Below, piece after piece: positions 30,991 through 63,713 of a stretch of 64,000 bases of DNA (position 1 is its first letter; each line of letters opens with the position of its first letter). The notes beneath the pieces are model-generated. The model ran no database searches. It was given only the letters and a program-made list of their open reading frames with translations, and had not been told where the DNA came from. The DNA is from Branchiostoma floridae (taxonomy: Eukaryota > Chordata > Leptocardii > Amphioxiformes > Branchiostomatidae). Both the position numbers and the translations under genes were made by a program. Where the stretch lies: assembly GCF_000003815.2 (NCBI RefSeq), contig NC_049988.1, positions 14,516,803 through 14,580,802 on the forward strand, given 5' to 3'.

Positions 30991-32326
30991 TTATTGTTAT
31001 TAATGTTAGTTTTGTACATTTCGTACACTTTAACCCCCCCCCCCTCCCCCAAGTCTTGACAATCATTTACTCTGACAGTTATCAGTAATCAATGGCGTAA
31101 CAACTGTCTGAGCCCAGCTCTGACAACATGTCTGGTACTAACCAGTTCACAGCCTTGACTTTGTGACGCTTAATTTATCTGGCAGCGCCGCATGGTAAAG
31201 TAAACACAATTTATCATATTAAATGCGGTATGTAACAACATGATCGGTCCATATTTTATACCCTAAACAAACAAATTTAACAAACAAACAAACAAACAAA
31301 CAAACGAATCTGGGCCAGGAGCTGAAAATTTCTGACAAACCTGCATGAAACAATAACGTTATACATACAAACCCCTCAAACTTTCGACTCAAATTATCTA
31401 AGTTATGATAAGTCGAGAAATTTACAACTATGAAGTGTCAATTATTTCTTTTACAAACAAATCAAAGATGCCTCGCCCCCACCAGTGGCACTTCCGGTGT
31501 CCTTGACCCATAACCCCCTGCGCGGGACATTTGAAGTGATTTGCATACAGGACAACAGCTGGTAAGCTGAGGCGTGTGTGTGTGCGGACTGTGGACTTTC
31601 TCCTCTTCTGTCAGTATTAGAAAGGTAAAACCCTTCTTCTTGCATGGAACACATAACACACATGTTACAGAAGCCTTTTCGCATTGCTAGTGTTATTGAT
31701 AAATGCTTTTGTCCGCTTTTGCGCGCTGGAAAACTGAACTGTGTATGAAGTAATGAGGGAGGGGGGCGTCGGATTCTGTTGCATAACAGATTTTATTCTG
31801 AGTAGAGTAGAGTAGAGTAGAGGTCCTTCGGTTGGGTAGGAGTTCGCACTCCATGGAACCGCAAGTGAGCCCCAAAACACATGTAAAACAGTATTTTTGT
31901 TAATAGTGTATTGAGTTGAATGTCTCACGACAATCTGAAAGATATCTTGGCCTATAGATATCAAGAAAATATTGTACGGGTGAAAGAAATTTACGTCTGA
32001 AGTATAAGTATCGATTTCAGGATCCTCCTGCGTAAGGCTAAGCCTGGCCATGTCGAGTGTTAGGTAACAAGAGGAAAAGTGGCTTCTCCCCGAACGTGTT
32101 GTCACGGAGCATTTAGTGCGCTACAGCGTGCTTACTTTTATGTTTGACGGAGTAAAACAATTTGGTTTTGGAATGAAAACACCATCATATTATACGTTTG
32201 CTGGCATGGACGAACTTCTATAATTTAAGTACATGTAGGTTTTAAAAGCTAATACTAACTTGTCATGTAACTCAGATTTTAGAGGTCTCAAATACAAGTT
32301 ATTTCATTGTCAGGCAAAGTAATATC

Positions 32327-32754
32327 ATGGCGAACAAGGTTCAGCACAGCACCATCCACTGGTTCCGTAAGGGCCTTCGCTTTCACGACAACCCGTCGCT
32401 TCTACACGCTCTCCGTACCTCCCGCCACGTTTATCCCGTCTATGTGGTGGACCAGAACTGGATGAAGGAACACGATATCCGCTACGGCGCTAACTGGTGG
32501 CGGTTCGTCATACAGTGTCTTGAGGAGTTGGACACACGTCTCAGGAAGTACGGCCTGCGACTGTTCGTCGTACGCGGGAGCGCTGAAGACTTCTTCAAGG
32601 AACACTTCCGAAAGTGGAAGGTCACGCAGCTCACTCATGATGTGGACACGGAACCTTTCTACCGTATACGGGACGTGGCGGTGAGAAAGATTGCGTCAGA
32701 CATGGGGGTTGAAGTCGTGACTCATGTGGCTCATACGCTCTATGACATTGACAG
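32327..32754 (+). CDS. phr6-4: Photolyase exon 1: antenna domain
   Basis: It starts at ATG 32327, in context AATATCATGG, and encodes residues 1-143 (last codon split). It covers most of the N-terminal Rossmann-like domain, including [33 protein letters not shown] and [13 protein letters not shown]. The donor is GTTAGT. Confidence 0.92.
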
Positions 32755-33884
32755 GTTAGTACACAGTAGTACGGAGTTGTGTATAAATTGTCCATATGAA
32801 CAAAATCCTGGCTAATTAATGGATTTTCTATCAACCTATAAGTATATTTTCTGTTCCACTTTTGCTTCTATCCTATGCTGCAAAGTAAAGGAGTGACAAC
32901 TGAACCGGACCTTTTTGAAACTCTCTTCTATAAGGTGGAAAAAAAGGTGCACGCATACATACCGGGTAGCAGTCATCAAGTATGATACTTTCTCTGTCTT
33001 ACCGGTATGTGTCAGTCAAGAATTTCCCTCAAGTTGCCTCCTACTGTAAATTGTGCTCCTATCGTGGTCATGGACTGCTATTGTGGGATCATACGAGAAA
33101 TACTATAGATTTAGTTTTGAAAGAAGTAGACCTACTAGTAATGTTACATGCAATTCTTGATGTTTGCTGGAGTTTGTTATAATATGCTAGCTGAGATATT
33201 CTGTGATAAGATTCTTAATGTGGCTTCTGTCTCTCTTCAGGACTGTAGAACGGAATGGAGGAACACCACCACTAACATACAGGAAGTTTCTGAAGGTCTA
33301 CAACGAGATGGGCAAACCTCCCAAGGAAAAGGAAACAGCTACAACAGAGCACTTTGCCAACTGTACCCTACCCCCAGAGGCCCTGCAGGATAAGAAGTTT
33401 GACATGGTAACGTTAGAAGAGTTGGGGATGAGGTGTGACTTTCCTGCCAAGTTTGTCGGAGGGGAAACAGAAGCACTGAGAAGACTAGAGAAAAGTCTGG
33501 AAGACAAGGTAGCGTATTAAACGTACTTACTATACTTGATTGCTCCGGAAACTTTGCAACCATGCAGTACAGTATTTATGTATTTGTCTCACATTGCTAT
33601 GCTAGATGAAAGGTTGAAATAAGCAAAGCCCCATCAAGATAGTACAAATGTTTGATTACAACATGCATATGTATGTTAAACTTAAACGTAGTAAATGCAT
33701 ATGGACAGTGGTAAAAGTATGTTGATGTAGGAGAAGTTAACTGACCCACATTTGCACATTATAGGAAAAACAATTTCTGTTAGAAAGAAGAACTATTATT
33801 TATAAAAGCGATTAGAGTTACTGTAACAGTAATGCTTGATTGAGACGTCAAATACACAAAAAAGAAAGTTTTTTATGTACTTGT

Positions 33885-44671: not shown

Positions 44672-44844
44672 CTACAATTCAGTATGGTTTGTTTCTGAGT
44701 ACGAAACATCCCTCCGTCTTCTCCGCCTGGCGCTTGGGAAAGTCAGCTGAAACCTGGCCTGGTCCACTGTGCTGGGGACGAACAGCGGACTGCCGACCAT
44801 CATACCGTGGTGCTGGAACAAACCACTGTCTAACAGGGAGGTTG
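44672..44844 (-). CDS. Candidate terminal exon with polybasic C-terminus
   Basis: It is preceded by a clean acceptor (ATCCCTACACAG) and is open in phase 1 for 57 codons to TAG at 44672. It encodes LLDSGLFQHHGMMVGSPLFV, then VDQARFQLTFPSARRRRRRD and a short tail ending NHTEL. It lies about 400 bases downstream of the stop of the thrombospondin gene, on the same strand. It could be an alternative last exon of that gene, joined from an in-phase internal donor in exon 45244-45471 (AAACG before GTGATT), or an exon of another gene. I recognise no domain. Confidence 0.4.
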
Positions 44845-45243
44845 CTGTGTAGGGATAAAATAGATAGTTATAGAACACATAAATTACTCTGCACAAAGCG
44901 TCTAACAGCGAAGTGTAAAGACACGGGGAAGATTATCACAAGAAGATGAAAATCAAATATTACTACACGACCGGGATGTTTAACTAGTAACAGCAAAGGC
45001 TGCTGTATAGGGATGAAGTAGATACATGGAAGGTATATCATCCATCTCTAAACCAGGACGGGGGGCGATGGAGACTTACGGGCACCTTTGATCTACTCTA
45101 CAGGCACGTGACATGGACAACGTAATGGGTCAATTATCATGAAGAAGGCCAAAAAGATTTTATTATCGCAATAAATTCTAAATATGGATATTGATTCTAC
45201 CGAGTAATGTAAGAAATATTAAAACTAGCTAATATGTTCTATT

Positions 45244-46916
45244 CTAGTCACCCTTTGAGGACAAAACGCGCTTAAAGAAGTCACAGAAATCTACATCAAG
45301 GGTAAGTTCCAAATAATCAGGATGGAAAAAGTAAAAATCACCGTTTGTTCCTTCGGTGTCCATGTTGAAGTGTGCGTTCAGGAAGCGACGAAGATACTGC
45401 CTCTCTCTGCCTGATGTCTGCAGGTCTTCTATAATCTCCTCTTCAAGAAGCTTCAAGCCATATAAACGTACCTGTGGATTTATTATTTGTGATCTATGTT
45501 ATTTTCCTAGTTTTAAAAGATTGCCTCATTAGTTATAAGTCATGACCGACAAATGAATTTCTTTTTTTAAATTTTTGTTTGACAATGAAAAGTATGAATC
45601 CTACCTCATCTAGAGTGCCATTGAAATTCTCGTCCCTGTCCCTTGCGATGTACAAGTTGGTATCGTTGTTTGACTGCAACAAAAAACACTTTAGAACGCT
45701 TGACTCATAATGATATCAAAATAGCAATATTTTCATGTAAAAAATGCCAAAATGTCAATATCAATTAATCTCTAATTTGTCTTACGCTTCATTGATCTGA
45801 CCAATGCAATCTGTTTTTGTTAGCTTCGCCAACGTTAAGAGGGTTTGTCAGATTATGAACAACGTAACTCAAGAAGTTGTTGATGGATCTTTTTGATATT
45901 CGGCAGGTTGGAAATATTGGCAAAATGAAGACAGGAGTAGCTTTTAAGTCCCCTTATGCCTCTCCGGCTCCCTGGTATTGTTAGTATTACTTCTGGTTTT
46001 GATATCTCGGCAAACTAAGAAACATGTATATATATTTTATGCAATCTTATTCTGCAAGGTCCTTACCCAATCTAACGGCAAGATGCCAGACTGTGTGGTC
46101 TCCTGTGTACCGTTAATGTACAGAGAGAGGGTGTACTGTTGTGCGTCAAACAGCATCGTCACGTGACTCCAGGTGTTTTCCTGGAATTCAGTCGAGCCCT
46201 GTATGACGTCATCACCCAGTTGGCCACCTAGATACCTGGAAGTCAGAATCAAAGATAGTCAGACTGTGGGAGTTAAATAGAACACAAAGATAAAAGTTTT
46301 GTAGCAAATGTATGTATTCTCTCTTTTTGTCTTTAGCTACTAATGGGTTTTATGTTTGCAAATTGTACAGAAGTGTAAAAGTTGCGTACCTGTCCTGTAA
46401 AAACAAGCACAGCCTGCTGTCCATGGTACAGATGATAGGCATCTTTGAGGTCGTCACCTCTCCACCCAGCCGGATCCAGGCTTCTATTGTGAAGCTGTAG
46501 AAGAAAATAAAAAATGGAAATGAATATGCAAAAACTTTTAGTTTTTTTAAAAATCTTCAGGGTGTTCCCTTTAGTTAAATCATCTGATTTCCAAGGGACC
46601 CCTCACAAAAATCAAGATACAAGAGAATCATGACAAAAGTAGGATTGAATTAATCATTAATTCACAATTATACAACATAAAGTAGTAAGCATCCTTCAGG
46701 ATCAATAAGTTATACAAAGAACTTTCAGCGTTGTTCATGGCACACTTATGCACTAATGACATGATACATACACCAATGATACTAATAAAATGAGTATATT
46801 GTAATAAAGATGAATAGCATGGATGGAAAAAGTACCTGTCATGCAGCTCCAGTGTAAGAATCGAAGGAAGCTCTACATAGTCGTCCATCCCGTCGAAGTA
46901 CAGTGCCTGGTTCTCT
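45244..46916 (-). CDS. Thrombospondin exons 32-36: C-terminal LamG-like domain
   Basis: Exons 46836-46916, 46390-46494, 46067-46235, 45605-45673 and 45244-45471 (TAG). The LamG/concanavalin-like marks are [64 protein letters not shown] and [20 protein letters not shown]. Such jelly-roll modules bind glycans or proteins. The domain follows the thrombospondin C-domain, where known vertebrate family members simply end. The last ~60 residues are charged and without known motif. A reverse-strand AATAAA near 45158-45165 could serve as a poly(A) signal. Confidence 0.88.
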
Positions 46917-49900
46917 CTGCAGTAGAATGTGATACATTTTTGTACATTGTAAAAGGCACAATTTGCCATTAATTAGCAAAGAAAATGTTTTTAGTCAGAA
47001 TTAGCGAGTCACCATGGGCGGCTGTGCATGAGGATTGTGTACTCTTCGTCAATCCTCCGTAAACAAATGCTGGGAGATTAAGATCGATTGATTGATTGAT
47101 TAAGTCATTAGCTGTATATTAAAAATTCCTTTTTCTCTAACACTCGAAGCTGCCTATGTTCTCACCTGTCTCCACAGGTGTATCGCAGGTTGGACCAGAT
47201 GACTCCTGTCTGGTTGTACTGGAACACCCCCAGCCGACCCCCCAGGATGGTGGTGTCGTACACGTTTCCGGAGTCAGTCAGGACCTCCATGTCGTTGGCA
47301 ATGGTCACCCTTTGTAGAATCACCAAACATCATGATATTATCACCAATCAATTGATGTAGACATCCAAGCTCTAACATACGAAGCTATTCGATCTGAAAG
47401 TGAGAACGTACCAGAAAACCTCTAAGGACTGTGCAAGGTACGATGAATGAACTAAACGGAACGTGTTTAGAACATCAATGTCGTTGGATATTGTCACCCT
47501 TTATAGAATAATCAATTACCGTAATCCCACCAATACATATAAAAACGTAGAAGTCCCGAGAAGTTCGAAACATCACAATCTGAAAGAAGGTACCATAAAA
47601 GTTCTAAGCATTATATAAGGGACTTGGTTTGAACTGACCAAGCTCTGACACTATAACTCTATCCTCCCCAATGATCAGGAAAATTGCACAAGGTTTTTTC
47701 AAGAGATCGTAAGCACGAAAGAGAATATACCTGATCAACCCTATAGATGGCCGATGTATCAAGTGAAACGTGTATGGAGTACGATGTTCCCAACCGCGCA
47801 TGTCCGGATCGTGCCACAGCAGATTGATTTGATCAGCAGTGTCGTGAGTATGCCACAGCGCTGTCGCTAGAGCCGTACCGGGACCCGTGCTAGAGTCTAC
47901 AATCTGGAGGAAATACAGTATTTATTTAGCGTAGTGAACTAGAGTAGAACCTTTATCAAATTCAATGACCTTTGAGAAATTTTTTCCTGACACAGCAGAT
48001 TGATTTGAATAGCGGTGTCGTGAGTATGCCACAGCGCTGTCGCTAGAGCCGTACCGGGACCCGTACTAGAGTCTACAATCTGGAGGAAATACAGTATTTA
48101 TTTAGCGTAGTGAACTAGAGTAGAACCTTTATCTAATTCAATGACCTTTGAGAAATTTTTTCCTGACACAGCAGATTGATTTGATTAGCGGTGTCGTGAG
48201 TATGCCACAGCGCTGTCGCTAGAGCCGTACCGGGACCTGTGTTATAGTCTATAAGCTGTTGGGAATATAACATGGAGTTAGCGTAGCGACAACAGAACCT
48301 TTATCAAATTAAATGACCTCCGTAAAATTTTTCGTGCCACAGCAGGTTGATTTGGTTTGCGGTGTCGTGAGTTTGCAACAGCGCAGTCGCTAGAGCCGTC
48401 CCGGGACCTGTGGTAGAATCTACAAGCTGGAGGGAACACAGCTTTGAGTTAACGAAGCGAAACTAGAACCTTTATCAAAATCAATGGTCTTTCGTAAAAC
48501 ATAGACATCATTTTGCAAAAGAAGGTAGAGAGAGATGTCTAGTTCAATGAATGACGAGACGTTAGCAGGTATATTTTGGGCACATAGCAACTGTAACATT
48601 ATTTCTTCATCTGATTTAACAAACTGTTGTGAAAATAAAGATCAATGATTTAAAGTACCAAAGGCTCACAAAATTACTTTTCTGACGGGAATTGAACATC
48701 ATCGGAATAAAGAAAAGGTTGAGAATACCTTTTTGTGACCGTAATGTGTCAACTGTAAATGTGACATTACCTTTATTTGGAGGCCCTTTATCCCACCAAT
48801 TCCAACACTACCGTCTGCGTTCTCGTTCTCATGTTTCCAGATGACGACATAGAACTTCCGGTTACTCTGATAACCGAACACGAAGCCGATAAAGTCGTTC
48901 CCAGAGTCATCACTGACGAACATGGTGCCCGTAAAGTTTACAGGTCCGAAGCTGTCCCTACCTGCGAGTAAACCAAATTGCGTTTTTAGTTTTGGTAAAC
49001 TATATAAGTAACGAAAAATGACAAATGGTATTGAATGAGTTAGATCCTTCGTGACTATTGCAACGATAACACACAACAATGTACCTGTTCAAGAATGGAT
49101 GATCATTGGTTACCGGAATAGCTATTATTCGTTTTCAACTAATTTTGAACTCGGGTTCAATCCATATTCAGTGTTTGATGAGTGATTTGTCATGGATGAT
49201 GTGTCATGTGCTGTGACGTACCTATCAAAAGGACAGGGCTGTCTGTGTCACTGAGCTGACGAATGTTTCTTCCCTGTAAAGCAACATGTTTAACCAAAGG
49301 TTTTAATCAGAGGATATTAGGATGTGAGAATCTGTAGCAGAATGGTACTTTCAAAAACCCACATGTTGATACATACATACATACATAATTATGATTCGTA
49401 CTAGATTAAATTTGTATTTGTATTCACTTATGTAGTTGTAGAAGCTCTTAAAGATAAAAGTCGCTATACTTCTTTCGTGTTAGCAAAGTACAGATATGAA
49501 AGCATGAACTTAGAGGGCCTGGAAAATGTCTTTGAGCAGAAGAGCAACGCCAATGCGACATTCCAAACAGTTGCGAAATATCATAAATAACTTACATTGT
49601 CTGTTATTTCCCAATCTGGAGCGGTCCCACCATCGAGGTTTACGGAGACGTGATTGGTGAAGCTAGTCACGTGATAGCTGGCGAGCTTCGGACATATGTC
49701 GTCAACATCCGGGACACCGTCACCGTCATAGTCGTATTCACATGCGTCACCGACATGGTTGCCTGGTGACGAAGGTCAAAAGAGTTGAGATTTTTTGGGT
49801 TTACATTGAGACAGCGTTTACATGCTGCCTCTTTCTGTAGAGGATTATGATAATGGATACGCTTATACGTAATAATATCATATTCACCATATGGTGTGTG

Positions 49901-52900
49901 CAAAACTTAACTTTGTTAACTTGAGGCGGTAACAAAAAGATTTTTTACACATTTCACAAGGATTTACGTATAGATATGATAGAATCAGACATGATCATAG
50001 TAGTTTTAATAGTTTTCATAATTTTGATGGACAGCCGTTGGTATATTCTGGAAACACTAGACACTAACCGTCTGCGTCCTCCCAGCCAGTGTTTGAGACA
50101 TAGGGACAGTTGTCCTGATTGTTCGGCATGACGTCATTATCAATGTCGTCATCACACGCGTCACCTATTGGCACAGCACAGAGAATGAAACTTCTATCAG
50201 GTGTAACAAAGGTTACAACGCATTACAATTATAAATACACATGACTCTAAATCACATTGGATGATCATGAACACAAACTACATGCTTCAAATGCATTCTT
50301 GTTAATGGCAAAACGGACTGACGAATTCTATTTCGTGAGAGGCAAATGAAATAGTTACCTATGCCATCACTGTCTGTGTCAGTTTGTTCTGGATTCGTGA
50401 TATCTGGACAGTTATCAACTGTGTTGACAACACCATCGCCATCTCTGTTGAAATATGAATAATATGAATACATTATAATTATTGAGATATCAACTAGTCT
50501 ACAAGCACTACAGATGACCAGAATCCGGTTCAATACATCGATAAAGAAATGTGTGGCTCTGCTGTTGCATTCTATCTTTAACGCTGTACATTGCTCAAAC
50601 AAGATCTCATCTCATGTGAATTTTTTTAACTTTGAGCATCTGTTGGTTGAGACTTTTGAGACTAAAAATAGACAACAACCTGGCCTCATTGCGCAGCAAG
50701 TCTATATAGAGGTCTTACTTGTCGCTCCCATCACAGGCGTCCCCGTATCCGTCCATGTCTGCATCTTCCTGGTTTGGGTTAGGGTCGGTAGGACAGTTAT
50801 CGCAGGCGTCCCCCACCCCGTCACCGTCTGTGTCAGCCTGCGTGTCGTTCACGTTGGGACACACATCGGTGGTGTCATCAACACCTGTGGAAATAATATA
50901 TTGAGTATGATGAAGGATTTCATCATGTTAATACCTTTGTCTTTCTTTATGTTTCTGTGGACGTATTGTCTCTTTTCATAGTAATGTTATTCATTATCAA
51001 TATGACTTGTGAAGTACTATCACTTTGGTCTCGTATCCTATCTGAAGTATGGCTTTACGTCTTCTCTTCAGAGGCTTTTATATCAAGTACTGTATTCCGC
51101 CTGTATAATATGTTCGTTTCATGTTTGATGTTTACGATGCCTGAGTGAATTATAACTGTCTTAAGTCTCAAGTCGACCATCAGCTCTAATATCAATGCCG
51201 ATGTTTTGTCTGATCAGTTTATTATGAATGCTTACAAATTACTGTTTTACTACTGTGTAACACAAAGTAGTTGGCTACCGTCGCCATCGTCATCATTGTC
51301 ACAGGCGTCCCCAACACCATCTCCGTCTGTGTCGGTCTGATCCTGGTTGGCTATGCCAGGACACGTGTCACACACGTCACCGTACCCATCACCATCTGTA
51401 TCTACTTGGTCCCAGTTGGCCACAAAGATGCAGTTGTCCTGAAAATAGCCCGCAGAAATTAATCATGATTCTTTAGTTGATAAGTTCCATACTACTACTA
51501 CTACTTTAACTGTCAGTCGATCTGTACAGACTATGACATAAACTACGCATTTCTATTGCACAAAAAAGTTCCAAAACAAGACACGATTAGCAATAAATGA
51601 GTTAGGCCCAAAGACTGATAGAACCAGCATGTGAAATTTTATGAGGATCGGACTGTTACTCTTAACAAAGATTTTGAGGTCATCTTTTTGCTGGACAGTT
51701 TACTCCCGTACCTCTATATCCATCCGCCCGTCGTTGTCGTCATCAGGGTCACACACGTCACCCATCGTGTCCCCATCATTGTCTTCCTGCCCACTGTTCG
51801 GGTCATTGGGACAGTTGTCCTGAGAGGAGTACAACAAGCTTGGGTTAGAGCTTTTGTGGAAACCAGAGTTAAAGTAGATCGATTACAACCTTCGTCAGAC
51901 CAGGAAGTACGAATCAGCACAGCTTAGTGTGAAATTTGTGTGAAATTATAACACTGTTTCCAACAGTCGATGAGTACTGAATGGATGTCAGAACATTTTA
52001 ATTACAACGTTAGTAATTCATATCGTGCACCATAATTTCAGCAGTTCAGCTGTACATAGAATACATAGGCGTAATGTTAAATGTATGCCCGTACCATTAT
52101 AAGTGTTCCACACTAGATTGCCTGCTACACTTTTTTAACTCCACATTCATCAAGGAGAAAGTAAAGATCTTTGACATAGACCAAGAAAAGAAAACGTTGT
52201 GGCGGAGATATCTAGTTGGATCAGTACAACCTGTGCGCAGTTCCTCGTGAGACATGACAGCGGTTCGTCCGGCCAGCCGTCCTGGTCTGTGTCCCTGCTG
52301 CAGCGGTAACCGTCTCCGCCCTGTCCTGTCTCACACTGTAGGGAACATGTTACAGAGTTCATTGTCTTTTACCGGAAATACGTAAGGTGTCAAGGTTACA
52401 CGTCATTTCCTGTGTGACGTCACATTCTCATTTTCTTTTAGGCTGGGCTCCACTGTGACGTCCAAATTTCATGCAAACTAAATTTACATAAACTTCCAGG
52501 CGTTTTGAGGATGAAGCTGTGCAAAAACTGGTATCTAATTCCTCTAATCTCTACCAGACTGACTAGGCTGGCTACTAGTATTATAAAGAGAATATTTTGC
52601 CAGGAGGGGAAACATGAACCTTAGCGTGGACTGACTCCCCTGGCCAATTTCCCTTTCTTTCGAATTCTACGATACCCGTACACCCGTACAAAGGCCTGGT
52701 GGAGACTATATTTTTCTCTCTCATAGTCTTACAAGCAGATGTTAACTTGTACTCACTCCACATCTGAACTTGCCGTTCCCCAGAGACAGACAGGTGGCGT
52801 TGCTGCTACAGTTGTGCCTGCCGAGTTGACACAAGTCTTCCGGGATGCAGCCCAGGTAGATGTCGCTGATGTAACCTTCAACACAGTTGCCACATCTGTA

Positions 52901-55900
52901 GCTTCCCTGTGAGGGAGTACATATGGTAAGGTTATGTATTTTCTAAAAAAAAAGCTAATTGTTAGTGATACGTAAGAAACACGTGATAGCAAATTACCAG
53001 TTGATAGTAACATTGCAATTAGGTAAAACACCCCCGTTTCTTCAAGGCGAATTCCTTCACTTTAGAGCTAAGGAAAAGAAAACGATGTTGATGTTCAGTC
53101 ACCTACCGGCGTGTTGATGCACTCTGCGAACTCGTGGCATCCGCCGTTGTCAACGTCACATTCGTCAATGTCCAAGCAAACCTATATGTAGACACGTATC
53201 AAAGTTCTTTTCCAGCTGTTTCTTCAAAATGATTAGGAAACGATTTGCGAGTACAGTCTATTATATCTACTTTGTAACACTTATATTTGCAAATAATTCT
53301 GTCTTCTAAAATGTAAACACAGTGATACGGTCAAAATTATAGAAACAATAAAAAGCACCTGTGGGCTGTTCTGCGCATGCTCCAGTCCGTATCCATGGGA
53401 ACTCTCCCCCGTGTATCCCACAGGGCATTTTCCACACTGGTACCCTGGGTCAGAGTTTTCACAGGTGGCATTGGTGAAGCATGGGCTTGCCAAGGAGCAC
53501 TGCAATATAAACAGTAACGTCAAGAGCTATGATTTGTCTATTACAACATATCTATAGCAAGATATAGTATTCATCGATAGACAAGGCACACCAATCATCA
53601 CATATTATTAGATATATCCCTCGTTTTATGATTTTAGACCATTTTGTTCTATTTTTAACCTGGTAATACTACTTAAAAATAATTGAAATGGAAAACTGGC
53701 GTCAGAGAACCGCAAACGCACAGAATCAAAATTGAGAACATATTTACATCAACGTATACTTCAGATGAAACAACAAGATTAAGCCTAAGGACAAACCTTC
53801 TTGAGTAGAACATAGATTAAACTTGATATAAAGCTTTGGAACTTGGGGGTCAGATACGTAGTCTATGTACATATTATCACATGCTTAGAACAGTGCATTT
53901 TAGCACAACAACATATTTATAGTTATCATCAAGAAAACACAGGAAGCAACTAGAGTTCGGCGACCTCATACCTCCATGAAAATTTAGAGCTTTCGTAAAT
54001 TTCATGCAATTGACTAACACATTAACATAATTTATGCATGGTATTTTTCATCATTTACTAACGTACACATGTCACAATTATAAAATTCCCATTATTAATC
54101 ATAAAGCGTTTTTGCAATTTTTACATAAATTATGCAAATAAGTTCCTCATTACCATATTTGGTATCTGCTTATATTCCACCTATCATAGTTAACATGTAT
54201 TACATTTATTGAAGTCCAGTTATTGAAAACAATGGCATTATACAATTTCCTCATTAATCATGCAAATTAAGTCCTCATTTGCATAAAATGTATATCATTA
54301 TGAACATCTTTGCATAAGGTAACCGCATGCCTAATATGATGCCAATCCATCAATCCTTTCTGCAGTTATCCTCTTTAGAATGTCTTGACAAAACGCCCCT
54401 GCAGTTCCGCAATTAAATGTTAGGGGGCTGAAACCTGCCCCACTTTGTCATGACACTGCAAGCTATCTACCAGCCAAATGTCAAGACCATATCACATCCA
54501 GGACAAGAGATACATTGAAAAAACTGCCATGATATAATATCCTCATTAATTATGCAAATATACTCCTATTTTGCATAATTAGTATTTAATCTTGTACAAC
54601 ATTGTCTAAGGTACCTATATACAAAAAATGATGAAAATCCGTTGTTCCCTTCTTGAGTTATCCTCGTCAGAAGTTTTTGACAAAAATGCCCCTGCTATTC
54701 CCAAACTAGACGCTAGGGGGCCCAAACTTACGTAATTTTTTCCTGAGCACAAGAGCTATCTAATGCTTAAAAATCTTGACCATAGCATGTTCAGAACACC
54801 GAGATGGCAAAACCGGAAGTTGCGCTGCAGTACCAAGGCCACACACCAGGGGGCCCAAAATTGACCTTGACCTTCGTCTTCCCAACCCCTACCTACATAC
54901 CAAATATCATCGTAGTCCATCAAGAGGTTCTCAAGTTATGATGACCACAAATATGCGGACACACAGACACACACACAAACACACACACACACAAACACAC
55001 AAACACACACACAGACACACTCAAAACTATACCTCCATTTTTTCATGGAGGTAATAAATTACCTCATCTATGTCAACACAGGTGACGCCGTCCCCGCTGA
55101 GGCCTGGAGGACACGGTCCGCACCGGTAGGTGGCGCTGTCTATGTTCTGACAGGTCACGCCTTCAAAGCAAGGCTCTCTGTCCAGGCAAGGGCCTACAGA
55201 CCCGAAACATAGCACGAGATTTTACATGGTGATTTTTACTTTATATATCTATGTAGTCGGGTGCAATGCAGCATAAGACACTGTTTCATTCCGCGTTTCA
55301 TTTTGGTACGATTGCTTTTAATGCGTCTAGGCGGGTGTGCTGTTATATGGTATGATAGTATTCTCAATACATTTTGTTGAAGATACTGCGAAGCACCATA
55401 TTTGGTTGGTGATGATCATTTTTGGATTTTGTACCAATCGGTCTTCAGTGACAATCATTTGGTCGAGACTTTTGTTCCTTTATGTAACTGAGAAATTTGT
55501 TCTTTTATGGAGCAATTAGAGTAAAAACTTTTAGGATCTGTTGCCATAAATTCGTAACTCACATTCTCCAGGATTACAGCCCACACACGGCGTGCAGTCC
55601 CCCCGTGACCACGTGAAGGGATGGCAGGGTTCACACTCGGTCTTGCCGCTGGTGCTGTAGAACCCTGCCGGACAGCACTCACACCCGGCTGATCCTGACT
55701 GATTGTTGTAGGAGCCAGGTGCACACGGCTGGCAGAAATCTACAGGCAAAGAAAGACATGTACAGAGATGTAATTAACTCTCCGGATGGATTGTAATGAT
55801 AATTGGTATGTGGGTAGGTAGGTAAATTGACCCAAAGGCAATGGTCAGAGTAAATTTTGGGCCCCCTGATGTGTGACCTTGGTACTGAAGCAGAACATTG

Positions 55901-58900
55901 AGTTTTTTGTATCTTTTGACCTGGACATGCTACGGTCTTAATTTTATAATGGCAGATAGCTTGTGATGTAAGGGAGAAGTTATGTATGCTTGGGCGCCCT
56001 GGCAGAGCCTGCTCTGGTTTCGTTTGTTTGGTACAGAATAACAGAGCCATGGTCTTTATTCTATTTTGCTATTGGTTTATTAGATGACGTTATAAGAAAA
56101 ACAGTGCCTGACATCCTAACTGGTATGATAGTATAATTTTTACTTTAGTGTCTTTATTCACATTCACCGTTTTCCCAATTTTGTCTTGCTTGTCGGTCAG
56201 TGAATAGCAATAATTCTATTGTTGACTTCTGTTGATAATTGATTTGGCCCTTTAGAAAAATACAAACCAACTTACCAACAAACCAACAAAACACAGAATT
56301 AAGTTTACTATAAAGCTACTGTCTACATACCAGTGAGTCCTGTTCCAAACAGCCCAGCCCGACACAAAGTCTTTCTCCCAAACAGACAAGCGTACCCGGT
56401 TTCACAGTCTGTGCAGCTTGGAGGGCAGTACTATGAGAGGGTTGTGCGGAAACAAAATTTCAGTTAGTACAAGTGATTTTTGTTTTTTAACACCAAGTTA
56501 ACAGTGCTACAGCTATTTGTAAACTAGGTTTATTCATCTGTTAACTTATGAATCTTTGCCAAGCAAATGTATTGGCTTTTCTCATGATGATAATATAATG
56601 AAATGAAATAGTTCGACTCTAAGCAAATCGCTTCTCTGGTCTATCATGGACATCAATGTCAAATGAGGCCTGGTCGCAAGAATCCGTCAAACTTACCGTT
56701 TCGTTACACGGGTCTGCATACTGGTACCTGGAACAGTTGAAGGCATAGCCCTCTTGACAAATCTGTAAAATGTAGAGAAAAATGAAATTGAAATATCTAC
56801 CTTTTCCTTTTACACGTACGTGTTTTAAACTTTGTTACTATTATAGGACCCTAACACCAGTTGCTCCCATAGTGTTCATACCCGAACTGTACTCTCCAAG
56901 CAGAGTTTGGTTAGGACGTTTGTGAATTTTTTATCACATTTTCTCCACCAATCTCTGCTTGGAGAGTTTTCGAACGGGTCCCCATACTTACCCTACCGGG
57001 GGGACACGGACTACACTCCGAGGCGCCGCCGAATGAGTGTTCGGTAGGGGAACGGTCACAGGTCGGGGAGGGAGGGTCACACCTCCCGCACGGCCTGGCC
57101 ACCCCGTCACCCAGGCAGTAGTAGGTAGTGGGGCAGCGCTCACAGCGGGTGTTACCTGTACGTAGGGAATTTATTACCTTCAGATTTAAAGGTCAAATGT
57201 TTGCTATAAACTACATAGAGATATCTATCGTTTTTTGGACGGTGATATGATGGGATGTTTGGCAATGCAGATTCTCATCTTTAATTAGGACTTATTTCAC
57301 ATAGGTAATGGTTAGCGCTGACCGGCTATCTCTTCGATCGCTTGCGATGATCAGATACATTTTTAAATTTGTAGTAGTATGGTTGTCCTCTTCAGCAAGC
57401 TTCATATAGGGTTCAGATTATCACCTGGCTGTTGAAGGTACCAAAGAAATTATTTAAGTGCCACTACGAAAAACATACAACGATACCTACATTGTACAAA
57501 CTCTCAAATTTCTTGTGGCATTCATGTGTAATGTTTGGCATCGATTCCACAACAATGTTTTGCTTACATTCGTTTCAAAAATTGGAAACGGAAAAGACAG
57601 ACACATAAGCAAACCAGACAAACTGATAGAAACGTACGTATATACTGCAGTTCCACAGTACACCCTATCAGTTCCATCCTCATGCTGATACTACCTTGCC
57701 ACGTCAGCGGATGGATCCGGATGTCAGTTACTGTGATAGGGTCAGCAAGATCTTGTTGCACGGTTGAAGAAGAATCTGCATTTCCTGTGAATTCCTTTGG
57801 AGAAATATTAGAAAATGGATCAGTTGTTACGCGGTAAATCTAGTTATTTTAATTCAAACTGTCGTAAATATTTCTAATAGCACAATGTCTTTCGTCTCTG
57901 ATGTACCTTAACTCAACGCAGTTGTCTTACTGTTCATTGTAGCTTTTCAAGTACTTTTTGTAGCATTGGCAACATCAAATGTAAGATGGGCATCACAAAA
58001 ATGAGTTAGATTTGTCTAGTATCAAAAACTTTTGCAACATCAACCACTGAAGATGCCATACTGTTGAGCGTATTTAATGCCATATACGTTTGTATCATAA
58101 TATATTCTAGTTCTGTACCCGTTGTGCCCCTTCAATAAATACCCTGTTATCAATGTATTTGGCACTATTGGTATAGTGTAACATATGCATTCTAGTTCCT
58201 TACCCGTCGTACCCCTCCTTCCGTATACGTGTTCCACGTGTCGTTACCGCTACTCAGGTACGTCAGGTAGTACGTCTGTACCCACGCCGCCTCGTTCGCA
58301 CTCCCTTGTAGGATCACTCCGCTGACGATTGTCTCTTGAAGAAATGATACCTGTAATAAAAACATAATGACTGATGGTAAACGTTCAGCGTTATATAATG
58401 AGTGGTCTGAAAACGTTGAGAGATCGGAAGTTTTTGCGGACTGAGTATACGTAAACAATCGAACTTTGTTCCAGAAAATGCAAAGACCGTCTGAAGCCTT
58501 CCCCTAAAATGAACAAACAGTTAGGAAGGGACTTGCATTTGCAAATGCCTTGTTTTACTTCTGAAAGCCTTTCTTGCTTAGGCTTCTGAAAGCCTTTCTT
58601 GTATCTTTAATAACCCACAAGATCACTTCGGTACACTTTGCCTTGGGCTTAAACTATCGTTCACAATCCTGCAGAATAATAAAAAATGTAAAAAAAATAA
58701 GGTGTCACCAAACTAGAAAAATAAGGCTGACCCGCAAAATAATAAATGGAAATCTTTAGATAAAATATTTCTCACCTGCAAAAAAATATAGGTGGACCCG
58801 CAAAAAATAAATGTGAATGTTTAGATAAAGATATTCCCAACCTGCAGCCATTGGTTCGCATCAGTAATCTTTGCCTTCCAGTTCCCCTGCGCGAACACGC

Positions 58901-61900
58901 CCGTGGTGTCGTTATTGGTGGGCTGGTTGTGCAGACGTGCGTAGTGCGGCTGGTAGTATTCATACGCGGAGGAGGCGGTGATTTGTGTGAAGAAAATAAG
59001 TGCGCTCTGCATCCCCAGTGCTTCGCCACATTCTAGATAATGGCAAGAAAATGACCTCTTACATCATTAACATGACAATTATCATATAGCCAGGTGACGT
59101 AGGCCCATCGGAAGGCCCCATTCATGTTGGTAATGACATTGTAACACATAGAATTCCAACGAGATTGGTGTTAAATAGCTTTCTTGGTGTTTATAGTTTT
59201 GTCAGTTCGACCAGGCATTGGAACCAATCAGAAGGGGCGATACACATGAAATTGACCAATAAGAATGAATGGAATACACGCAGGGACGCTCGGTCATTCA
59301 TTCGGTGTTTTTAGAAACCGAACATAGATCATGGCAGCATATACACCTCATTGCGTGTCATTAACCCTTAAATGTTATCAGAGCGATATTGAAATTAAGT
59401 ATCACAATTAAAGGAAACTCACCAAAATCTTTGACGTAATATTTTGGCACTCTAATGAACACGCCTCCTGTGTCATCGTCTACACTTATCTCGTACGTGA
59501 TTGGTTGGTCCAAACTGTCATAGAGGCATGCGTCATTTATTGTCATGGCAATGGTTGCTATATCTCCGCGGGGCGGCGTCCCTCTGTCGGTCACGATGAT
59601 GTAGAACTCCAACAAAGTGCTGTCGTTTCTTCTGTCGTGTATAGTGCTGCAAAGAAAGAAAGGAACAAACTTACCAGATCTACATGTACAAGCGACATCA
59701 TTAAAATACTTTTGTGGAATTTTTCTTTTGCAAAACGGTTTAACAGACAATACTGTTTAAATGTTCAAACGGCTTCTATTTTAAACAAAGGAGCGAAAAT
59801 GACAGATTGACGGGGAAAAGTAGGGCTAAAACTAACCTGGAGTCCAACCTTCTTCGCTTTGGTCCGCTCCCGAGTGGATCAAAGTGAACAAGCTGGACTC
59901 CAGGTTAGGCTAAAACCTTAAGAATATCATTATATAGCTATTGAACTGCATTGGAACAGTTTTGATGTGGTCAAGACATTCTTGTCTTTTGCCAAGAGTG
60001 ACAAGGCTTCCATCCATCATTATCAAGAATAGTTAGGATCGATACCAAACGATATGCATGCAACTGTACATGAAAAAAGTGTGGCTCAGTCTTACGTTTG
60101 GTTGATGTGCGTCCTGTGGAATGTGGTGTTGGCGTTGTCACCACTGTCTCTGTCCTCCCACACTAGAGTCATCACCGGAGTCAGTCTCAGGACAGGCTGG
60201 GGATGGATGGTAAACATCGTCTCCTCCAGGGTGGGGCAGTTATCATTGACGTCCTCGATAATGATCTATATTGATAAAACGACGAGAAATTTCATTTTTA
60301 GTTTTCTTAGAGTTAAAAATCTGGAAATCTAATGTAGGACTAAGATTGTTCATACATGTATGCCGAAACATATTCTTCATAATTACATTGGGTACTCGCC
60401 GCTAAAGAGCAGGGTGGTGGTAGGATGGAGGTGAGGAGGCTACAGAGGAGCCTAAAGCCACGCACGAGCCACCTGTGCCACAATGACATGTACCTAGATG
60501 AACCCCTCACCTTGTGCCTGAGCCCTCAACTTATTGAAGTTTGGTACGCAGAGGAAGACATATGTCAAGCGTTGCAAAATATTAAGTTTGTTGACTCGTG
60601 CAACAATAGTTCAATCGGCTTCTTTTTGACGGACAGACTTTACTTTGGTTTTGAGTCTTGGTGCCATGACCAACTCTTTTCTGGTTGATAAATGTACCAT
60701 TATTATAATTTGATTTATAAGAATAACACACCTACCTTGATTACTACTGTTCCCGTTCTAGGTGGTGAAGCGCCGTAGTCTTGTACATCCAGTATCAGTG
60801 TGTATTCCTGGGCAATTTCATAGTCCACTTCGGAATCAATACTCAGCAATACCGTCGTTGTGGTCACCTCGAAAGATTCCGTGCCTGAAATGATACATGG
60901 TTTGGGATGAAGATGAGCTTTGCTATCTGTCTGTCAGTTTACTGGAAATATTCTAGTCGGTAAGTGACAAACAACGAAATATCATAGATTCGAAGGAAAA
61001 GATGTGTGAAAGTGTAGGTGTAACTTTTTAAGTAGATTCTTTCGTGTTTGTCTCATGTTGATCCATTTCTGTCAAACTAAAACGTCCTCACTGGTGAAAT
61101 ACAGTTTTGCAAATTCAGTGTTTTAAGACAAATTCAATGTACCTGATAATAACCTAACCAAAAGCGCCTACCTGCAATGTTCAGGTCAGGTGACGGTGTG
61201 GGCGTGTCGTCGTCACAGGTGACAAACGACAGCCCCTCTACTGTCATCCACGGCAGAGGTGCGGGGGAGGGCGCGGCAGCAGCTAGGCGGTTATCAGGAG
61301 TGTCATCTTTGATCGTGAAATGACGAGCTTCATTTCCTGAAAATACGAATTTCATTAGCAGTGTGGAACGGTTAAAGCATTTGACTGTTTACAGCTACAA
61401 ATGCAGTTTGTTTGTTGCTAGATGAAATTTGCGACAAGTAGATAAATGATTGAATTATTTCTCAAGAAACTATGAAAATGCAATTACATCATAAGATAGT
61501 TATAAAGACATCTGTAAGGGAAAAATGGCGAATCAAGACCGTTTAAAGCAAACTCCATGGGCAAATATGAAACAATGTACATCAAATCATGCTATTCCTT
61601 TGGTTGAAGAAAACATGACTCCAGCTTTATGTCTGTAACATCAGAGATGCTTGTACTACCAATATAACAACACCAAATAATTGCTATACACGTACGTACC
61701 TTTTAGGATGGTCACATTGTACGATGGTCCTGTAGAGAAGATGTCAGTCACAACTATTATCTGCACGGTGCCGTTGACATGCAGGTCCTCTCTGATGGTC
61801 GTCTCGTAGTCCAGTGGATATCCGCTGACGTCAGCAGATCTTCGCCTCCTGCTCCCGCCATCGTTTGCAGAGCTGTCAATCACTTGTGAGGAGAAGGTGG

Positions 61901-63713
61901 TACCGGTGATCTCCATGAAGAATGAAGAGACGCATTGCTCCCGCTCAGCAACGAACAGGACAAAGTGGTAAGTTTCTCCTACCTAGGGAAAGAAGATAAA
62001 AAGGTTTGAAATAGGCTATGACCTTGCTGATGCAATACATAAAATAGAGATACATTCGTTTACATTACACAAACTCTCAGCGTCCAGGGCTGTAAGGATT
62101 CCAGCCGGAAGGACCTGCTTGACTTTCAGGGGCCAGTAGAAGAGCTGCTAGAAGCCTACTTTAGTCAGACTCTCCAGTGCCATGGGTTGGAAGTGTTAAA
62201 CATATCTTGATTACGTTATAGTAAGAAGTTTACTTCATATCCGTCCTAAAGTCTCTGTTAAATGTTGATAACGTTACATCATAAGGGAGAAATTGCAACA
62301 TGTGTTTCTGATCTTACCGTTAAGTCTAATGCCACAGTCTCATTCACTTCACTTACTCCTGGAACACATTCTCCACCCGTGACATTTCCGGAAACAGGTA
62401 CAATACTCCCTCCGCCTGAAAAAATGAACAGATCGTCAACAATCGCAAATTAACAAAAACAATAACAGAGACGACAGTAACAACATGGTAATCACAATTT
62501 TGTGTTGAAGTCCGAAAGAATTCTGATGTATTCTATTCTGATGTATTCTATTCTATTCTATTCTATTCTATTCTATTCTGATGTATTCTAACGTATTCTA
62601 TTCTATTTTGATGTATTCTAATGTATTCTATTCGGATCTATTCTAACGTATTCTATTCTATTCTATTTTATTCTATTCCATTCCATTCTATTCTATTCTG
62701 TTCTACTCCTGACCAACGTACCTTCTCCCTGCGCTGGAAGTAGGCTGATTATCCTACACGCAGTGTTTGTGGAACTGTCGCCCTTCTGTCGCCGCAGGTC
62801 AACAACTTTCTGTTTGTCAACAAACAACCACAGCTCGTCCCCACCACCAACGGTGATGATCTCGTTCCCAGTGTAAGTGATAGCTACACGGATAGCCAGG
62901 GTAAATCTGTGGAATAAAGGGAAGATAACATCAAATCAAATACATTTTTTTGCAAGTCCTCTAAAAATTTACTTTTGTGATTAGGAACGTAACTGCTATG
63001 CTTTGTTGCATGGCATTTTCTTGCACATTTGGTCCGTATGCTAGTGCACTCTATAAAAAGGTACAGTTCGGATGCTAACATACGAATCTTATTGACAGCG
63101 ACACTGTGTGTTGTTGTCATCGTCGCACAGTTGTGTGTAGTATGGAACCATTAATGAGAATGATAAATGCAACATTAAGTTCGATAGTGGAGACACCAAC
63201 CCAAAGTTGTGCAGTACATTGTTGCAGTCCCTCTGTTGTTCAGACCTGTATCCCAGTCCGTCAATCGGAAAGAATCTATCGCTGTAATACCTGGGGATAG
63301 AAATGACGGGGAAAATTGCATCAAGAACCGTGGCACATTCCGTTGGCAGACATATTACATTGGTTGATACGTTTTCCATATCATGCAATGACACTGAGTT
63401 TTTAGTAAGAAGATACTCAATTCTTCCATTAGAAAATTAATGAGATTTAATGAGATTCTACTTCGTTAAATTTCAATAAGAGAATGCTAAATTTTGTTGT
63501 TAGATAGATGACAATAGAAGGGTTCTATACTGTTATGCATGTACGAATCCAATTACAGACCTTTTTAGCTTGATAATGCAATCCAAAAGAAGCAAGTGTA
63601 CCTGTAGGTATCCGTATCATTTTGTTTCTCCAGCGTCAGCGTCGCTTCTCTGACGTAGTTCACGTTAGGGACGGACGCGAACCACTGAGAGATGGAGTCA
63701 GTGGCGGGGTTGT
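45244..63713 (-). CDS. Giant chimeric thrombospondin, 36 exons, 5' end beyond the window
   Basis: The exons in protein order are listed with the domain entries below. They run from 63602-63713 to 45244-45471 (TAG), total 5075 coding bases (about 1690 residues), and every junction agrees in phase. The type-3 calcium repeats plus the C-terminal lectin-like domain define a thrombospondin, a secreted calcium-binding matrix glycoprotein. Around this core are a fibro-slime/PA14-like module, two cadherin repeats, a discoidin domain, cysteine-rich modules and EGF modules on the N side, and a LamG-like domain after the C-terminus. Vertebrate thrombospondins 1-5 end at the C-domain and have none of the cadherin, discoidin or fibro-slime parts. 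I recall reports of very large 'mega-thrombospondins' in invertebrates, and this may be one. One gene is inferred because exons stay in phase and closely spaced. The signal peptide and start are not in the window. Confidence 0.85.
47166..49762 (-). CDS. Thrombospondin exons 27-31: C-terminal lectin-like domain
   Basis: Exons 49596-49762 (second half), 49222-49273, 48771-48961, 47731-47903 and 47166-47309. The sequence follows the L-type-lectin-like beta sandwich of thrombospondins closely: [85 protein letters not shown] and [20 protein letters not shown] ending YTCGD. This domain contacts cell-surface partners. Where vertebrate thrombospondin-1 has a cysteine (GRLGVFCF), this protein has Gln. 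Exon 30 is flanked by three partial tandem copies (47998-48430). Confidence 0.93.
47458..47600. repeat. Partial duplicate of exon 31 border and adjoining intron
   Basis: The block CATCAATGTCGTTGG..ATTGTCACCCTTTATAGAAT resembles the 5' end of exon 31 with its acceptor (around 47286-47320). It is followed by a diverged copy of the next intron stretch (ATCTGAAAG..GGTACCA). It lacks the rest of the exon, so it cannot substitute for it. Confidence 0.55.
47995..48432 (-). pseudogene. Three partial tandem copies of thrombospondin C-domain exon 30
   Basis: Copies at about 47998-48080, 48166-48253 and 48338-48425 repeat the first ~85-90 bases of exon 30 (GTCCCGGTACGGCTCTAGCG ... AATCAATCTGCTGTG) with ~80 bases of its upstream intron, at a ~170-base period. 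Each keeps a usable acceptor and an open frame matching [17 protein letters not shown]. Each then runs into TCAGGAAAAAATTTCTC-type intron sequence without the second half of the exon or its normal donor. The two nearest the true exon are almost identical to it, and the farthest is most diverged. Confidence 0.8.
49596..52335 (-). CDS. Thrombospondin exons 21-27: type-3 calcium repeats
   Basis: Exons 52231-52335, 51712-51819, 51279-51438, 50719-50884, 50359-50444, 50069-50164 and 49596-49762. They encode a run of DxDxDG calcium motifs with regularly spaced cysteines: [75 protein letters not shown] and [15 protein letters not shown]. These wrap around many calcium ions to form the wire of the thrombospondin signature piece. 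One loop is degenerate ([16 protein letters not shown]). The series has about the usual number of repeats. Confidence 0.93.
52555..52715 (-). repeat. Dispersed repeat, copy 2
   Basis: The reverse strand matches the repeat at 42988-43160 block for block (CTCCACCAGGCCTTTGTACG, ATCGTAGAATTCG, CACGCTAAGGTTCATGTTTC, CCTGGCAAAATATTCTC). It sits in the intron between exons 20 and 21. Confidence 0.7.
52757..55193 (-). CDS. Thrombospondin exons 17-20: EGF-like modules
   Basis: Exons 55063-55193, 53359-53499, 53107-53181 and 52757-52906. Four EGF-like modules: [40 protein letters not shown]; a calcium-binding type with [12 protein letters not shown] split over exons 19 and 20; and [18 protein letters not shown]. 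Phase 0 junctions dominate. Thrombospondins have EGF modules just before the type-3 repeats, so this position is canonical. The large intron between exons 17 and 18 carries a 1.1-kb repeat element. Confidence 0.88.
53966..55058. mobile_element. ~1.1-kb non-coding element with ACCTCCATGAAAA ends
   Basis: It starts TACCTCCATGAAAATTTAG and ends TTTTTTCATGGAGGTAATA, so the ends are inverted copies of about 14 bases. The interior is AT-rich, with internally repeated blocks (CCTCATTAAT.ATGCAAAT at 54249 and 54540; AAA.TGCCCCTGC..TTCC) and a (CA)n-type tract at 54957-55022. Related fragments occur at 17885-18000 (plus) and 55790-55960 (minus), sharing the GGGGGCCCAAA..TTGACCTT block. It is probably a non-autonomous DNA element. 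Confidence 0.6.
54957..55022. repeat. (CA)n-rich microsatellite
   Basis: ACAC/AAAC-type tandem units lie near the end of the element at 53966-55058. Confidence 0.85.
55563..57155 (-). CDS. Thrombospondin exons 13-16: cysteine-rich GCC2/GCC3-like modules
   Basis: Exons 56992-57155, 56697-56762, 56331-56430 and 55563-55739. They contain [47 protein letters not shown], then [36 protein letters not shown] and [11 protein letters not shown]. The repeated 'C..CP.G.Y......C..C' pattern is that of GCC2/GCC3 (ephrin-receptor-like or TNF-receptor-like) modules of extracellular proteins. Exons 14 and 15 are less regular. Confidence 0.7.
57638..59032 (-). CDS. Thrombospondin exons 10-12: discoidin (F5/8 type C) domain
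   Basis: Exons 58842-59032, 58204-58350 and 57638-57794. The fold starts at [13 protein letters not shown] and continues [67 protein letters not shown] and [20 protein letters not shown], closing with LIGC. The first and last cysteines would form the usual disulfide. Discoidin domains bind lipids, glycans or collagen through loops. In the last exon the reading frame continues past a decoy GTAGTA site, because the domain would otherwise lack its final strand. The donor used is GTACGT. Confidence 0.85.
59423..61336 (-). CDS. Thrombospondin exons 6-9: cadherin repeats
   Basis: Exons 61172-61336, 60736-60884, 60096-60265 and 59423-59646. The marks of cadherin repeats are [29 protein letters not shown], then the calcium-linker [15 protein letters not shown], and in the second repeat [16 protein letters not shown] followed by IAMTINDAC. 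Cadherin repeats bind calcium between modules and give stiff rods. The first repeat is incomplete and its Pro/Ala-rich insert (PSPAPLP) is unusual. The second ends in NDAC in place of DVNDN, so the last calcium site may be lost. The extra cysteines are odd for classical cadherins. Confidence 0.75.
59828..59912. repeat. Short palindromic repeat (hairpin) in intron
   Basis: AACCTGGAGTCCAACCTTCT..CGCTTTG is mirrored by CAAAGTGAACAAGCTGGACT..CCAGGTT around a ~16-base loop. It could be a small MITE or a hairpin in the pre-mRNA between thrombospondin exons 8 and 9. Confidence 0.65.
61700..63713 (-). CDS. Thrombospondin exons 1-5: fibro-slime/PA14-like module
   Basis: Exons 63602-63713, 63201-63290, 62722-62906, 62318-62415 and 61700-61982. 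The sequence [20 protein letters not shown], then [53 protein letters not shown] and [17 protein letters not shown] follows the fibro-slime pattern (W..VP..N, YFP.DG.G, HNF.F, GDD.WVF...LV.DLGG, .Y.F..F..ER). This is a PA14-related beta-barrel that binds sugars or proteins outside the cell. The usual GDDD calcium motif is GGGDE here. A polybasic SRRRRSAD stretch (coded near 61838-61860) follows and could be cleaved by a furin-type protease. The acceptor and donor of exon 2 were chosen to keep the HNFGF frame. Confidence 0.72.
62519..62706. repeat. (ATTCT)n pentanucleotide microsatellite
   Basis: A long imperfect run of TTCTA units with GATGTATTCTA interruptions, in the intron between exons 3 and 4 of the thrombospondin gene. 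Likely length-polymorphic. Confidence 0.92.

Follow-up and report, generated by a model that had tools for sequence, protein, structure and literature searches.

Mega-thrombospondins (mega-TSPs) are the closest described relatives of the gene reported here, and their published bilaterian architecture corresponds to its module order (Shoemark et al. 2019, PMC6526912). There, mega-TSPs are described as typically over 2,700 aa in length and as lacking both a coiled coil and the DDD motif, with a range that extends from ctenophores to basal chordates and leaves out the vertebrates. Silencing of a mega-TSP stopped head regeneration in Hydra, a PA14 domain has been reported in a Hydra mega-TSP, and the full mega-TSP open reading frame of Nematostella was sequenced from cDNA. 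Branchiostoma floridae is represented by two entries, BfMT1 and BfMT2, of 1,931 and 2,095 aa; both are N-terminally partial, and their accession numbers are consecutive (PMC6526912).

The window discussed below is the whole 64-kb stretch of B. floridae DNA that was analysed (contig C10, 14516803-14580802), and the next 90 kb to its right were covered as well. We are highly confident that the feature in this window is the 3' part of an amphioxus mega-thrombospondin gene, most likely encoding a secreted, single-chain matrix glycoprotein.

Gene models and the question of chance

Comparison of minus-strand open reading frames with plus-strand frames further to the right yielded 71 matches in collinear order. 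A repeat near 87 kb accounts for two of these, which were dropped before gene modelling; the others extend from ~79.0 kb leftward to 44.7 kb and pair with ~88.9 to 137.9 kb (extended window coordinates). Models of the two genes, termed A and B, were obtained by splice-aware search followed by corrections by alignment and by hand; in some places the exon edges come from manual correction or from homology, and the finder missed four LRR exons in each gene, which were supplied in the same manner. Gene A is predicted to comprise 78 exons encoding 2,944 aa on the minus strand, from an ATG at genome position 14595806 (79004 in extended coordinates), preceded by in-frame stops, to a stop codon at 14561474 (44672). 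Its 5' end lies 15,004 bases to the right of the window's edge, and the window holds about 58% of the predicted protein.

An earlier first-pass annotation of the window had proposed a very large protein from a gene that continues past the window with more modules, and the predicted length and flanking sequence bear this out: 41 further exons lie to the right, 35 of them (exons 3-37) forming the LRR region, with an FN3-like region also present. The 36 phase-consistent exons of that annotation agree by count and end points with exons 42-77, exon 42 being located at 63713-63602, whereas the 3' exon 78 (44844-44672) was missed. The 3' end it had placed at 45244 is the end of an open reading frame; exon 77 ends at 45342, an edge set by alignment to the paralogue, and is followed by the terminal exon.

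Because the modelling method itself enforces GT-AG introns (77 in A and 86 in B) and phase consistency, the possibility of chance was tested separately, using a gene finder with no homology bonus whose codon usage was trained only on the model of paralogue B, a model that had itself been built using homology to gene A. This homology-free finder recovered exactly 64 of the 78 exons of gene A, including 34 of the 37 within the window, with a score of 825.7 for the gene region. By comparison, this region read on the opposite strand reached 49.7; the leftmost 36.4 kb of the window, where at least one other real gene resides, reached 129.8 (plus) and 156.3 (minus); and five block shuffles gave 3.0 to 15.7. 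Chance chaining of open reading frames is ruled out by these controls (825.7 versus 3.0 to 156.3). In the reverse test, with codon usage taken from A, 67 of the 87 exons of gene B were recovered, terminal exon included.

Elsewhere in the window, positions 32246-32812 (plus strand) match the N-terminal domain of DNA photolyase/cryptochrome (PF00875, 135.4 bits), and at 921-1658 minus-strand open reading frames weakly resemble the TSP1_spondin and PAN domains, with scores under the cut-offs.

Module order and features in the window

The predicted module order of gene A is a signal peptide, about 35 LRR exons, an FN3-like region, a PA14/fibro-slime-like block, cadherin, discoidin and Cys-rich modules, EGF-like domains, type 3 repeats, the TSP C-terminal lectin domain, a second LamG-like domain, and finally a polybasic tail. 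A domain search of the joined translation upheld the first-pass view that one predicted gene joins the cadherin, discoidin, EGF, type 3, TSP C and LamG-like modules, and that a LamG domain follows the C-domain. By contrast, the cadherin and PA14-like modules, which had been regarded as the N side of the protein, are both central and are preceded by the LRR array. Coordinates of the in-window features are collected in Table 1.

Table 1. Features of gene A within the window (window coordinates)
Feature	Position	Strand	Details
Gene A, in-window part	44672..63713	-	37 of the 78 exons (42 to 78), predicted to encode about aa 1229-2944
PA14/fibro-slime-like block, exons 42-46	61700..63713	-	core exon 44 = 62906-62722
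RRRR(S) basic site, exon 46, convertase-like	61839..61850	-	absent from paralogue B
Cadherin domain, exons 47-49	60096..61336	-	PF00028, 41.9 bits, E 1.4e-10
F5/8 type C (discoidin) domain, exons 51-53	57638..59032	-	PF00754, 80.3 bits
Cys-rich growth-factor-receptor / ephrin-receptor-like region, exons 54-57	55563..57155	-	PF07699, 18.3 bits, cut-off 23.1
EGF-like domains, exons 58-62, running into first type 3 motif	52231..55193	-	PF12947, PF07645, PF00008
Thrombospondin type 3 repeats, exons 62-68	49596..52335	-	PF02412 (TSP_3), 196.1 bits, 7 stretches
TSP C-terminal L-type lectin domain, exons 68-72	47166..49762	-	PF05735 (TSP_C), 257.7 bits; GND instead of DDD
176-bp tandem repeat, 3.6 copies	47815..48441	-	overlaps start of exon 71
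Second ConA-like / Laminin_G_3 domain, exons 73-77	45342..46916	-	PF13385, 82.1 bits
Exon 78, tail	44672..44844	-	RRRRRR 44728-44711; C-terminal HTEL 44686-44675; stop 44674-44672

At the N-terminus, outside the window, the predicted signal peptide is a hydrophobic stretch at aa 13-25 (identified by hydropathy). A 19-residue hydropathy scan of A revealed no second strongly hydrophobic segment, with all windows of mean hydropathy over 1.5 lying inside the signal peptide; in paralogue B, one extra window exceeds this threshold, at aa 1823. The LRR array scores 320.7 bits with LRR_8 in 13 stretches within aa 1-1059 (Pfam), and the FN3-like region falls just below its cut-off (fn3, 23.9 bits versus 25).

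The PA14/fibro-slime-like block is borderline. With the NCBIfam model TIGR02148 (Fibro_Slime; cut-off 45), B reaches 45.4 bits and A only 40.5, and PA14 (cut-off 24) scores 16.9 bits in A and 17.2 bits in B, such that the fibro-slime module named in the first-pass annotation is borderline in A and just reaches its cut-off in B. The region of exon 44 covers positions 2-43 of the fibro-slime model, which has 90 positions; an exon-wise genome search with that model gave no match here and none in the controls either, and is thus uninformative. The PA14 and fibro-slime matches overlap, in agreement with the PA14 domain reported for the Hydra mega-TSP. The basic RRRRS site of gene A sits between this block and the cadherin domain, where the model of gene B has a Thr-rich insert.

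The cadherin domain (44.2 bits, E 2.7e-11 in B) and the second ConA-like domain (Laminin_G_3, 76.2 bits in B) are found in both paralogues, and the Cys-rich region is 73% identical between them. Among the best 60 of 128 matches, the solved relatives of the discoidin domain include factor VIII, factor V and the neuropilins. The EGF-like domains of A score 52.1 bits (EGF_3) and 36.6 bits (EGF_CA), DxDxDG motifs number 11 in A and 9 in B, and N-glycosylation sequons number 42 and 88, respectively. Exon 45 of B (L014:1223-1772; extended 115223-115772) encodes a sequon-dense Asn/Thr repeat beside the FN3-like region. A crude heptad scan of A detected no coiled coil (longest run 2), and no coiled-coil family occurs among its Pfam matches at E 0.01.

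Lectin exon 71 is only partly duplicated by the three upstream copies of the 176-bp tandem repeat, which contain its acceptor and 5' part but lack its 3' half. At 48255 and 48079, the copies would give a 110-nt open exon that shares the phase of exon 71 (0 to 2) and has a weak donor. Mutually exclusive lectin exons were considered and provisionally rejected, for although two of the three copies could splice in frame, part of the lectin core would be lost; the upstream copies are provisionally taken to be a dead partial duplication.

The A/B pair and alternative gene structures

Gene B, with a predicted 87 exons and 3,290 aa, lies on the plus strand from an ATG at 88876 to a stop at 137865 (extended coordinates), head-to-head with A and separated from it by 9,871 bases between the two ATGs. 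Its modules follow the same order as those of A and are collinear with them. Of 2,894 aligned residues, 1,641 (57%) are identical; differences at the three codon positions amount to 0.346, 0.245 and 0.575, and overall dN is 0.36 against a saturated dS of about 3.7. When the alignment was divided into 12 segments, dS was computable for six, the other six being too divergent, and the lowest values were 0.93 (EGF) and 1.18 (lectin). Together, the 57% identity and the high synonymous divergence indicate that the pair is an old duplication.

Assemblies of polymorphic genomes can yield head-to-head copies of identical order, and the second locus could in principle be an allele or an inverted assembly duplicate, with one copy a relic. 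The degree of divergence just described speaks against such an origin, as do the differing exon numbers (78 versus 87) and models that lack internal stop codons in both A and B; an allelic duplicate is effectively ruled out by the 57% identity and the high synonymous divergence, and this explanation is given almost no credence.

A second alternative is that two or more neighbouring genes, one with the LRR, cadherin and discoidin modules and another resembling a thrombospondin, were fused by the predictor. The largest intron of gene A (1,563 b), which follows exon 58, the first exon of the EGF series, speaks for this alternative. In gene B, however, the exon order is retained and the same two exons are only 415 b apart. 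Furthermore, for 76 of the 77 introns of A, gene B has an intron in the same phase no more than one alignment column away, although the construction of each model drew partly on the other. The same core order is reported for mega-TSPs, of which the Nematostella open reading frame is cDNA-derived (PMC6526912). The finder reports one gene per run, and its single chain is evidence neither for nor against fusion. Separate genes are held to be very unlikely because paralogue B is collinear, and the break between the cadherin/discoidin and EGF/type 3 parts, which the first-pass annotation had named as the sign of separate genes, is not seen in the models, the large intron being occupied by a repeat copy. 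This repeat element spans 53931-54935, and a further copy lies at ~97.7-98.7 kb (extended) inside an intron of gene B.

Proposed mode of action, the C-terminal tail and known thrombospondins

As judged from its domains, the product of gene A would be secreted. The N-terminal LRR array and the central PA14/fibro-slime-like, cadherin and discoidin modules may bind proteins, glycans or lipids; a stalk of Cys-rich and EGF modules would lead into a calcium-loaded type 3 wire, and the two ConA-like lectin domains would be turned towards receptors on cells and towards other components of the matrix. Such a protein could act as a multivalent linker lacking the coiled coil used by trimeric and pentameric thrombospondins. 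The 11 DxDxDG motifs and the EGF_CA and cadherin matches suggest calcium dependence, and the product is presumed to be monomeric. TSP-DD of Ciona is described as being secreted in monomeric form (PMC6526912).

Oddly, the ER-retrieval-like C-terminus fits poorly with plain secretion. The tail of A ends in RRRRRRDVSYSETNHTEL and that of B in KKRRRRSAVEDAHEEL; in each, a basic run is followed by eight (A) or six (B) residues and then by H-x-E-L (HTEL in A, HEEL in B), and the homologous terminal exon of paralogue B was predicted exactly without homology. It is tempting to suggest that amphioxus mega-TSPs hold an ER-retention switch, in which a largely ER/Golgi-resident protein would be kept in the early secretory pathway by its H-x-E-L ending and released to the matrix once a convertase cuts the tail at the polybasic run. 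Parallels exist: in human carboxylesterase 2, HTEL was left in place to retain the protein in the ER and was taken off to have it secreted (PMC4624787), Thbs4 has an ER role via ATF6-alpha (PMC5063588), and in an engineered system the proteolytic loss of a retention signal frees the cargo (PMC8904541). If such a switch exists, a retained mega-TSP may act in the ER like Thbs4. Nevertheless, the ending was noticed after the fact in two genes of shared ancestry, and its chance occurrence, about 1.6e-4 per protein for [KH]-x-E-L at the composition of A and B, applies to a motif picked after it had been seen. In addition, KDEL added to peroxidasin lowered its convertase processing and secretion (PMC8533639), and the terminal sequence of mega-TSPs is called nonconserved in PMC6526912. 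After the basic run, five of 10 aligned residues are identical between A and B, three of them in the last four; because residues outside HxEL are conserved too, a retention switch is regarded as improbable, and plain secretion of a matrix glycoprotein remains the preferred reading. At the other TSP loci of the genome, none of 11 C-terminal readings ends in HxEL, and some of these readings appear to enter introns.

A TSP_C search of the genome (513,431,437 bases in 431 contigs) returned at least 42 exon-level matches: five in A, three in B and 34 at 11 other loci. In a query-anchored alignment, the DDD position of the lectin reads GND in both A and B, and DDD in all 10 other loci with those columns; the eleventh, L028, has no such columns and is not part of the tree. 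There, A and B group together to the exclusion of the 10 others (local support 1.000). VGD at the RGD site was discarded as a mark of mega-TSPs, given that several other TSP loci of the genome have VGD too.

The EGF-type 3-lectin part of A is shared with the canonical thrombospondins THBS2, COMP and THBS1 (1yo8, 3fby and 1ux6; E 6.4e-90 to 1.4e-156, with THBS2 1yo8 at 2.3e-156). Unlike these, A lacks the DDD motif and, by the crude scan, a coiled coil, and it possesses extra N-terminal modules; canonical members are described as spanning 840-1,152 aa and having one lectin-like domain, at the C-terminus (PMC6526912), versus a predicted 2,944 aa and two such domains in A. Proteins of the fibro-slime family, whose cut-off only paralogue B attains, are described in Fibrobacter as cellulose-binding (PMC4668043).

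Agreement is closest with the mega-TSPs, the comparison that the first-pass annotation had aptly recommended, and the architecture is hence not new. Eight of the nine hallmarks from PMC6526912 that could be tested are present in A: a signal peptide, LRRs (about 1,000 aa), cadherin, discoidin, the EGF/type 3/L-lectin series, a second ConA-like domain, no DDD and no coiled coil. The remaining one, FN3 plus Cys-rich, scores below the cut-offs. The feature thus belongs, by its sequence, to a known family, and the gene itself is most likely already known as BfMT1 or BfMT2. Within the literature on mega-TSP names and the main text of PMC6526912, which uses none of the terms fibro-slime, KDEL, furin or head-to-head, what is possibly new comprises the predicted N-termini of both copies and their head-to-head arrangement with introns conserved between them, as well as the tail motif, the partial-exon tandem repeat and the fibro-slime match, which is borderline. 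Besides pointing to an old duplication, the models draw attention to the PA14/fibro-slime-like block and to a putative, testable C-terminal processing signal. Finally, the predicted full-length models of the two amphioxus copies begin at the signal peptide and would supply the N-termini that the BfMT1 and BfMT2 entries lack.
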